Part shown: positions 27,117 to 60,831 of the stretch, in pieces | How the letters are laid out: each line of letters starts with the position of its first letter | Numbering within the stretch: position 1 is the stretch's first letter | NCBI RefSeq assembly: GCF_006365315.1 | Contig: NZ_CP040968.1 | Location: 310,001 to 374,000 of the forward strand | Direction: 5' to 3' | From: Candidatus Methylopumilus universalis | GTDB taxonomy: Bacteria; Pseudomonadota; Gammaproteobacteria; Burkholderiales; Methylophilaceae | DNA length: 64,000 nucleotides | Position numbers and translations under genes: made by a program | Notes under the pieces: model-generated | The model's input: only the letters and a program-made list of their open reading frames with translations | What the model was told of the DNA's origin: nothing | Databases searched by the model: none

Positions 27117-27123
27117 TATTTAA

Positions 27124-27159
27124 ATAAAAAAACCAAGCAAAAAAGAAGTTTGCTTGGTT
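27124..27159 (-). terminator. Second Rho-independent terminator after the H1-like gene
   Basis: Read leftward, an 11-bp stem (27149-27159 with 27131-27141, core CCAAGCAAA/TTTGCTTGG) with a 7-base loop is followed by a run of seven Ts. It lies 60 bases downstream of the H1-like stop and just before the PLP-binding protein gene. Confidence 0.85.
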
Positions 27160-27195
27160 TTAGTTTGTTTAGCAACAAAGAACTTGCTAATAAAA

Positions 27196-27214
27196 ACGGG
27201 ACCTAAAGTCCCGT
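27196..27214 (-). terminator. First Rho-independent terminator after the H1-like gene
   Basis: A 7-bp stem ACGGGAC/GTCCCGT with a five-base loop lies 5 bases after the H1-like stop codon; read leftward it is followed by TTTTA. With the hairpin at 27124-27159 it makes a tandem terminator, consistent with a strongly expressed gene. Confidence 0.75.
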
Positions 27215-27219
27215 AATAT

Positions 27220-27564
27220 TTATTTCTTAGCTGCTGGTTTTCTCTTAGCTGCTGGTTTTCTCTTAGCTGCTGGTTTTCTCTTAGCTGCTGGTTTTCTCTT
27301 AGCTGCTGGTTTTTTCTTAGCTGCTGGTTTTCTAGCTGCTGGTTTTTTCTTAGCTGCTGGTTTTTTCTTAGCTGCTGGTTTTTTCTTAGCTGCTGGTTTT
27401 TTCTTAGCTGCTGGTTTTTTCTTAGCTGCTGGTTTTTTCTTAGCTGCTGGTTTTTTCTTAGCGCTAACTGATGTTGAAGGTTTAGAAATTGTTGCTGGAA
27501 GTGTGCTATTAGTTTCTGCTGGTTTTGAAGAACCAAAAATTGCTGAAATTAATTTTTTGATCAT
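27220..27564 (-). CDS. Histone H1-like lysine/alanine repeat protein
   Basis: 114-residue, extremely basic protein. Residues 1-35 (MIKKLISAIFGSSKPAETNS and a Ser/Thr/Pro-rich stretch) are non-repetitive; residues 36-114 are tandem KKKPAA (7 copies), one five-residue RKPAA, one KKKPAA, four KRKPAA and a final KK. Such AAKKP tails resemble bacterial histone H1-like proteins and the C-terminal tails of some HU or AlgP proteins, which bind and compact DNA. There is no globular DNA-binding domain. It has a good ribosome-binding site (GGAG, 9 bases before ATG), its own promoter and two terminators. The family function is inference. Confidence 0.8.
   Translation of the reverse strand: MIKKLISAIFGSSKPAETNSTLPATISKPSTSVSAKKKPAAKKKPAAKKKPAAKKKPAAKKKPAAKKKPAAKKKPAARKPAAKKKPAAKRKPAAKRKPAAKRKPAAKRKPAAKK
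27223..27459 (-). repeat. 18-bp coding tandem repeat inside the H1-like gene
   Basis: Thirteen consecutive units, twelve of 18 bp and one of 15 bp, encode the KKKPAA/KRKPAA array. The codons are almost identical from unit to unit (only AAA versus AGA at the second lysine position differs by block), so the array has recently expanded or been homogenised and should vary in copy number among relatives. Confidence 0.95.
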
Positions 27565-27618: not shown

Positions 27619-27647
27619 AATATGGACTTCTTTTTAAACCTAGTCAA
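27619..27647 (-). promoter_or_regulatory. Sigma-70 promoter of the H1-like gene
   Basis: On the minus strand TTGACT (27642-27647) is followed after 17 bases by CATATT (27619-27624), matching five of six -35 and four of six -10 positions. A start near 27612 gives a leader of about 48 bases that includes an A8T8 block (27585-27600). Confidence 0.55.
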
Positions 27648-59856: not shown

Positions 59857-60831
59857 ATGCGTTCACAAGATCAAGACACAGCTAAAGAAAGAAAGACCAC
59901 TAGCCCATCTAAAACACAGCGCTTACATAAACTCCTTGCTCAATCTGGGATTGGCTCCAGGCGAGAAATGGAAAAATATATTGAAGCGGGTCGTGTACAT
60001 GTGAATGATAGCCCAGCAATATTAGGTCAATTAATTCATGAGCACGATGTGATCAAGATTGATGGAAAGACAATTCATCTTTTCTTTGATTTAAAATTTC
60101 CTAAAATTCTTATTTATCACAAACCTGAAGGTGAAATTGTTTCAGTAAGTGATCCGCAAAAAAGAACTACAGTATTTTCAAAGTTACCTAGAATTAAAAA
60201 CGAAAAATGGATTTCCATAGGGCGTCTTGATATCAATACTTCGGGACTGCTTATGTTTACAACCTCAGGCGATCTTGCTAATCGACTTATGCACCCTAAA
60301 TTTGAAATTGAACGCGAATATGCCGTTCGTATCTTCGGTGAATTAACTGAAGAGCAAATGTCAAAATTAAAATCCGGAGTTAAGTTAGAAGACGGCCTAG
60401 CAAAGTTCGATGAAATTCGTTATCAAGGTGGGGAGGGTGCTAATCGATGGTACCAAGTCATCCTTATGGAAGGTAGAAATCGAGAAGTTAGACGTTTATT
60501 CGAACATTTCAATCTACCAGTAAGTCGTCTTATTCGAACCAGGTTTGGCTCTGTATCACTTCCCTCGCGCGTTAAACGAGGCATGATGTTGGAGCTTGAA
60601 GTAAAGGAAGTTGAGAATATTTTAAAATGGCTCGACATGCCTTTTTCTGTGGTGAGCCGCAATGAAAGTCTCATTAAGGTTAAGGCGCGCAAAAAGCATG
60701 CACACCCATCACCTTATGCACCTAAAGTTAAGCTTGACCGAAAAGCAATACTAGACAAAAAAATTAAAAAAATTGGAAAAAAACCAGTCAAGAGAAGAAT
60801 CAGAAGTGATTTGGATATTAAAAAAATCTAA
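59857..60831 (+). CDS. rluB: 23S rRNA pseudouridine synthase RluB
   Basis: Converts U2605 of 23S rRNA to pseudouridine. The 324-residue protein has an N-terminal S4 RNA-binding domain (RLHKLLAQSGIGSRREMEKYI region, 22-75), the catalytic domain with aspartate in SIGRLDINTSGLL, and GRNREVRRLFEHF, followed by a basic, disordered Lys/Arg tail of about 50 residues. The S4 domain and length separate it from RluE. Convergent with prmB, sharing CTAA as both stops. Confidence 0.92.
   Translation: MRSQDQDTAKERKTTSPSKTQRLHKLLAQSGIGSRREMEKYIEAGRVHVNDSPAILGQLIHEHDVIKIDGKTIHLFFDLKFPKILIYHKPEGEIVSVSDPQKRTTVFSKLPRIKNEKWISIGRLDINTSGLLMFTTSGDLANRLMHPKFEIEREYAVRIFGELTEEQMSKLKSGVKLEDGLAKFDEIRYQGGEGANRWYQVILMEGRNREVRRLFEHFNLPVSRLIRTRFGSVSLPSRVKRGMMLELEVKEVENILKWLDMPFSVVSRNESLIKVKARKKHAHPSPYAPKVKLDRKAILDKKIKKIGKKPVKRRIRSDLDIKKI

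Follow-up and report, generated by a model that had tools for sequence, protein, structure and literature searches.

Background

H1-like proteins of variable length are already known in bacteria, with AlgP (PMC9239181) and with Hc2 and BpH1 (PMC2848022) as the examples described in the parts of these papers drawn on here. AlgP from Pseudomonas aeruginosa carries KPAA repeats whose number is described as a rearrangement hot spot between clinical isolates, and KPAA-repeat peptides were reported to bind DNA in vitro (PMC9239181). Hc2 from Chlamydia and BpH1 from Bordetella are Lys-rich H1-like repeat proteins whose length varies within species, and the flanking regions of the Hc2 length variants are reported to be intact (PMC2848022). 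PhaF from Pseudomonas putida is described as an amphipathic helix joined to a DNA-wrapping, largely disordered C-terminal domain (PMC3574117). TubY, encoded on a Bacillus cereus plasmid, possesses an amphipathic tail with a lysine cluster that binds lipid as well as, non-specifically, DNA and that needed oligomerisation to reach the membrane in the cell (PMC7762940).

The gene considered here lies in a window of 64,000 nucleotides (the whole stretch of DNA analysed, positions 310,001 to 374,000 of contig NZ_CP040968.1) from Candidatus Methylopumilus universalis, whose genome is a single contig of 1,275,319 bases. Its 114-aa product resembles PhaF in combining an N-terminal amphipathic helix with a putatively disordered tail, whereas the helix of PhaF is long, binds PHA and is accompanied by a leucine zipper (PMC3574117) and that of the present protein is a predicted one of about 11 residues with no zipper seen; in addition, no PHA synthase was found in the 16 genus genomes searched. 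The KPAA-repeat tail, predicted to be disordered and variable in repeat number, recalls that of AlgP, but where AlgP possesses a 124-aa putative helical N-terminal domain the present protein has just 34 residues ahead of its repeats and a single predicted helix (residues 2–10), and AlgP serves polyphosphate granules (PMC9239181), while polyphosphate kinase (PF02503) was not found in 14 of the 17 carriers in a second genus. Lys-rich repeats and within-species length variation, here 13 versus 11 units in one conspecific pair, are shared with Hc2 and BpH1 as far as these are described in PMC2848022; in contrast, the present protein shows no HC2 (PF07382) match, mainly six-residue units and an amphipathic N-terminus. 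The likeness to TubY is confined to a basic amphipathic segment, compared by description and not by sequence, as TubY is a tetrameric MerR-type DNA-binding protein (PMC7762940). In the Methylopumilus and Methylophilaceae literature searched, mainly titles and abstract openings, the short helix-plus-tail form common to two streamlined genera was not found described, and no work linking Methylopumilus with histone was found.

The gene and its repeat array

The 114-aa protein comprises 39 Lys, 5 Arg, 16 Pro and 30 Ala with one acidic residue, giving a computed pI of about 12. The first 34 codons are non-repetitive, and the array forms the 3' two thirds of the ORF (Table 1). Its 13 head-to-tail units, twelve of 18 bp and one of 15 bp, are read on the coding (minus) strand from 27462 to 27232 as seven GCTAAGAAAAAACCAGCA, one GCTAGAAAACCAGCA (the 15-bp unit), one GCTAAGAAAAAACCAGCA and four GCTAAGAGAAAACCAGCA, and after the last GCTAAGAGAAAACCAGCA unit the array is ended by GCTAAGAAATAA and the stop codon. 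Tandem Repeats Finder returned the region as a single array at 27223–27462 (period 18, 13.5 copies, 96% matches) with a score of 431 versus 133 for the second-best array in the window, so the array is far beyond chance. Units of the same type are identical in DNA in the window genome, and the copies therefore most likely arose by duplication. The short unit equals, letter for letter, the KRK unit minus an AAG codon, which makes its derivation from a KRK unit likelier than from a KKK unit. Other frames are open across the array because 18 is a multiple of 3; the NQQLRK frame (27120–27536, minus strand) and the LAAGFL-type frames in relatives were taken as by-products.

Table 1. Features of the helix-plus-tail gene and its surroundings in the window
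Feature	Position	Strand	Conservation or support
Promoter-like TTGACT-17-CATATT	27619–27647	-	Hexamers and spacing unchanged in 8 aligned genus genomes
Gene for 114-aa protein	27220–27564	-	Whole or partial in 14/16 genus genomes
Codons 1–11, MIKKLISAIFG, predicted amphipathic helix	27532–27564	-	AlphaFold2; hydrophobic moment; similar start in 17 second-genus genomes
Codons 12–34, Ser/Thr/Pro-rich linker	27463–27531	-	Kept within the genus; second-genus linker shorter and dissimilar
Array of 13 units: 7 KKKPAA, 1 RKPAA (15 bp), 1 KKKPAA, 4 KRKPAA	27232–27462	-	
Terminator-like hairpin 1, after the stop codon	27196–27214	-	17/19 columns invariant in 8 genomes
Middle hairpin TTAGCAAGTTCTTTGTTGCTAA, between the two terminators	27169–27190	-	29/33 columns invariant in 8 genomes
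Terminator-like hairpin 2, CCAAGC...GCTTGG with T run	27129–27161	-	32/35 columns invariant in 8 genomes

Length variation within the genus

The two genus genomes in which the gene was not found are G004 (54% complete) and G012, whose contig ends beside yggS. Six further genomes were left out of the unit counts: G006, G007, G008 and G013 hold only a contig-end piece, the gene of G009 is split across two contig ends, and that of G011 contains a run of N. The nine complete arrays, from eight genomes, consist of 13, 11, 13, 11, 14, 11, 11, 8 and 8 units, all in frame with units of 18 or 15 bp. The incomplete genome G014 contributes two different gene copies of 8 units each on separate contigs (L011 and L018), which represent either a strain mixture or a duplication.

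The closest comparison is offered by the conspecific genome G015, with 11 units and 101 aa versus 13 units and 114 aa in the window genome. The flanks of the two genes agree at 996/1000 and 995/1000 bases, the first 105 coding bases are identical, and all 204 of 204 aligned array bases are identical beside a gap of 39 bases, leaving 40 tail Lys plus Arg residues in the window genome versus 33 in G015. With flanks near-identical but unit numbers different, gain or loss of whole units in the array appears, in this one conspecific pair, to outpace substitution in the surrounding sequence. Sets of near-clonal isolates have been reported for the genus, with 22 clonal 'Ca. M. universalis' genomes mentioned in PMC10872708.

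The order of the units is blockier than random in the window genome (4 runs, P = 0.0096 by shuffling). Blockiness by shuffling was significant in three of the nine complete arrays, those of the window genome, G015 and G003, and was not found above shuffles in the other six, with that of G002 being near-alternating.

The first-pass annotation had read the window array as homogenised units in blocks, attributed these to recent expansion and a 3-base deletion, and supposed that length and charge may vary between strains. Its units and block order are borne out by Tandem Repeats Finder and by unit reading, and both length and charge do differ among close relatives, with 8–14 units in the complete genus arrays and identical copy number not seen. 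The deletion holds in so far as the short unit lacks one AAG codon, with the KRK type as its likelier source, and the block expansion fits the window genome without being general.

The conserved N-terminus

In contrast to the drifting tail, the first 35 codons gave a mean dN of 0.019 and a mean dS of 0.151 (ratio about 0.13; 45 pairs among ten genus sequences), and their variant codons were 12 synonymous versus 5 non-synonymous, a pattern that points to purifying selection on the N-terminal codons. The segment MIKKLISAIFG has a hydrophobic moment of 0.629 (shuffle probability about 0.02), which is reached by 2 of 60 other window ORFs (at least 120 aa, putative starts) with a mean of 0.31. Six helix variants from two genera have moments of 0.62–0.67 with a shuffle probability of 0.01–0.02 per sequence, so the moment is suggestive. 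AlphaFold2 predicted a helix at residues 2–10 (mean pLDDT 80 for residues 1–10) and coil for the rest, with a pTM of 0.14.

The helix follows the pattern M-[IL]-x-K-[LF]-hydrophobic-x-A-hydrophobic-hydrophobic-G. An alignment of 19 proteins, from which 7 of the 17 second-genus carriers were excluded, shows no variation at M1, K4, A8 and G11. Among those excluded is G043, whose start MLEKLMEYFLE departs from the pattern, with A8 and G11 broken.

A gene of the same build in a second genus

Inspection of the sequence in front of yggS revealed a similarly built gene in 17 genomes of another genus (g2), encoding MLEKLINALLGK... and then repeats of the KKPAA, KKKPAA or KKKPVA type; the copy in G038 is cut at a contig end. 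The g2 genomes are 0.7–1.4 Mb in size and the complete ones about 1.3 Mb, and judged by this size the genus would correspond to the marine OM43 lineage as presented in the parts of PMC10872708 and PMC6794327 drawn on here. yggS lies directly downstream of the gene in 16 of the 17 carriers (five of the 16 by tblastn). Among 13 g2 genomes with a yggS match, the gene is present in 11, and in the other two (G030 and G046) the sequence ends 140–240 bases upstream of yggS.

Searched with the whole protein, 187 family genomes gave matches in 61, and beyond the genus these lay mostly in the tail. A profile of the genus N-termini, run against the 187 family genomes at E up to 0.01, gave three weak matches outside the genus (E 0.005–0.009) and missed the second-genus proteins. 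What connects the two sets of genes is thus their place, helix pattern, tail type and terminator stem rather than a sequence search, and from these features we infer common descent. Since the g2 gene shares a like helix, a Lys/Pro/Ala tail, the neighbouring yggS and the terminator stem, build and composition seem to persist while the tail sequence turns over. A profile made from both genera and searched against 399 genomes of the order was matched at its first model positions in six genomes only, all from the two genera; four genomes from other families matched from model position at least 9, mainly in the tail.

Elsewhere in the family, 39 yggS loci were examined out of 97 other-genus genomes with a yggS match, and by the pattern used none of the 39 contained a helix-plus-tail gene. 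A presumably pilT-like gene lies near yggS in 33 of these 39 loci, which makes it the usual neighbour in the larger-genomed relatives examined.

Three further loci were observed. A protein starting with MKKLFSFIFGIFSSKPAAK... in G097 (genus g16, L132:1998–2300) consists of a short helix and a Lys/Pro/Ala tail in an unrelated place, possibly through convergence or relocation, and was excluded from the carrier counts. In G058 (L118), a 143-aa ORF between pyrC and yggS may represent an ancestor of the gene. In a single-contig genome of 1.36 Mb (L144, G001:C1:350500–353500), yggS is split over different frames and the adjoining helix-plus-tail gene is intact.

Transcription signals and 3' hairpins

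The promoter-like stretch upstream of the gene has 25 of 29 columns invariant versus 26 of 51 for the intergenic DNA that directly follows pyrC (8 genomes); a promoter scan alone was not above chance, with 3 sites versus 4.2 in shuffles. The terminator scan yielded 5 sites versus 1.1 expected, namely the two hairpins on both strands and one site inside the array, and the stem of terminator 2, as CCAAGC or CCAGGC ... GCTTGG, is present in all 16 g2 3' regions read. With a conserved promoter-like stretch at one end and terminator hairpins at the other, the gene gives the impression of a separate, strongly terminated transcription unit.

The middle hairpin was found in 12 of 16 genus genomes, in a single copy each (11 exact and one with one mismatch), versus 0 in the control, and a form with one inserted base in G009 brings the total to 13 of 16. 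In the 16 g2 3' regions read it was not apparent. This hairpin could be part of a 3'-derived small RNA. The only two Rfam candidates for the 3' region, Qrr (29 of 50 bits, E 0.0074) and the trpB motif (30.6 of 59, E 0.071), were weak and fell below their gathering scores; both were rejected as likenesses that any string of hairpins may show by chance.

Proposed function and alternatives

These features suggest a two-part protein in which a membrane- or partner-binding helix is joined to a disordered, nucleic-acid-binding polycation, forming a minimal tether or condenser; we put this reading forward tentatively, at somewhat below an even chance. The N-terminal amphipathic helix would anchor the protein at the cytoplasmic membrane, on its inner side, or at a partner, and the disordered KKKPAA-type tail, with about +40 charges, would bind nucleic acid non-specifically, most likely chromosomal DNA, so that the protein might condense or tether the nucleoid. 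The tail DNA would gain or lose whole units via slippage or unequal recombination and be homogenised in the process, while selection would keep the reading frame, the charge and the helix without any fixed length. A helix region fixed in the genus, the same build and place in g2, and a composition that stays while units turn over and length drifts are probably what selection on the helix and on total positive charge would produce.

The binding of the helix to a membrane or partner, the binding of the tail to nucleic acid and the tethering are deduced from likeness to described systems. Nucleic acid appears to be the likeliest ligand of the tail because KPAA peptides bind DNA in vitro (PMC9239181) and PhaF joins a helix to a DNA-wrapping domain (PMC3574117), and the likeliest ligand of the helix would be membrane lipid or a partner protein. 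A helix of 11 residues may be too weak alone for the membrane, because the TubY tail needed oligomerisation to get there (PMC7762940) and no oligomerisation segment was seen in the 114-aa protein; the helix could bind a protein instead.

Should the helix anchor the tail, the protein would be a very small nucleoid tether, and a single short protein would suffice to make the holding of the chromosome in tiny cells testable; should it be no more than an H1-like tail, the known length-variable H1-like proteins of bacteria would gain a lineage. Little that a cell can do without is expected to survive in streamlined genomes of about 1.3 Mb, yet in two related lineages a gene of this build has been kept in the same place, with its own terminator, a conserved promoter-like region in the genus and a tail of changing length. 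The most specific version of the two-part reading, that streamlined pelagic Methylophilaceae possess a membrane-to-DNA (or polysome) tether beside yggS, made of an 11-residue helix and a self-homogenising tail whose length is freely tuned between strains, is unlikely.

The best-surviving alternative is a soluble H1-like nucleoid protein whose tail alone binds or condenses DNA, with the helix aiding folding, stability or dimerisation. The composition of the protein and the bacterial precedents with variable Lys-rich repeats (Hc2, BpH1 and AlgP) speak for it, but it leaves the amphipathic 11-mer recurring in both genera unexplained. Ordinary nucleoid proteins are not lacking, as the window genome encodes three HU/IHF-type genes (PF00216), and the 114-aa protein matched no Pfam family at E up to 1, HC2 included. 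The search of NCBIfam likewise gave no meaningful match (one at E 0.95, with 8.2 bits versus a cut-off of 770). We regard this alternative as possible and on the whole doubtful. The H1-like label of the first-pass annotation fits the tail composition and finds no counterpart in Pfam; it takes no account of the N-terminal amphipathic helix, a conserved element that is superfluous for a plain H1 tail, or of the similarly built gene at the corresponding place in a second genus.

Alternatively, the tail might neutralise rRNA or mRNA instead of DNA, making the protein an RNA or ribosome binder. Lys/Pro/Ala stretches occur in the family on ribosomal protein L21 (L142), a DksA-like protein (L002) and topoisomerase I (L076, a tail match), and a search of solved structures, in which no relative was found, gave 60S ribosomal protein L4 as its sole and weak match (E 0.097). 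Such tails are non-specific, however, so the company they keep says little, and nothing places the 114-aa protein at ribosomes; this explanation is improbable.

A granule tether like AlgP (polyphosphate) or PhaF (PHA) would agree with the tail composition of those proteins and, for polyphosphate, with matches to polyphosphate kinase (PF02503) in 10 of 16 genus genomes, including 8 of 9 high-quality ones. Against it, PHA synthase (PF07167, PhaC_N) was matched in 0 of 16 genus genomes by a search whose control was positive in 1 of 14 known genomes (Caulobacter), and a PHA role is unlikely. PF02503, the only kinase model searched, had no match in the genus genome G006, which is 97% complete, and was matched in only 3 of the 17 g2 carriers. 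Of the remaining 14, nine appear in the list as having no match and five do not appear among the matches; some of them are incomplete, and G016, G023, G027 and G029 are single-contig genomes of 96–99% completeness. A polyphosphate role is thus possible in the genus and not general, and as an account of the gene the granule tether is very improbable.

The view that the coding potential is incidental and that the conserved unit is a 3' RNA element (two terminators and the middle hairpin) or repeat DNA is hardly credible, for although conservation of the hairpins is close to that of the gene start (Table 1; 40/43 columns invariant from the ATG in 8 genomes), the N-terminal codons bear signs of purifying selection, the nine complete arrays keep frame, and the protein build recurs in g2 where the middle hairpin is not apparent.

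Lys/Pro/Ala-rich tails on other proteins

Similar stretches were noticed on several other proteins, and Lys/Pro/Ala tails look like an add-on within the family. In the window genome itself, at about 61 kb and hence beyond the window, a DksA-like protein (L002:967–1731) carries a Lys/Pro-rich N-terminal extension. DksA_N was matched with 106.8 bits at residues 139–209, together with a zinc finger, and residues 3–109 of the extension scored 38.5 bits with HC2, just under the cut-off of 40. TatA-like proteins of another family genus, g18 (L078, L079, L080 and L086; Pfam confirmed for L078), possess long C-terminal KKPAA/KKPAV tails and appear to be another membrane protein joined to an H1-like tail. 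Ribosomal protein L21 in G055 (L142:749–1219) has a Lys/Pro/Ala-rich tail, and a topoisomerase I ORF in G033 (L076) matches the tail of the window protein. Within the window, a 324-aa protein at 59857–60831, presumably pseudouridine-synthase-like, has a lysine-rich C-terminal end, which with 14 K/R in 30 residues is the most basic stretch of that length in the 60 other window proteins compared.
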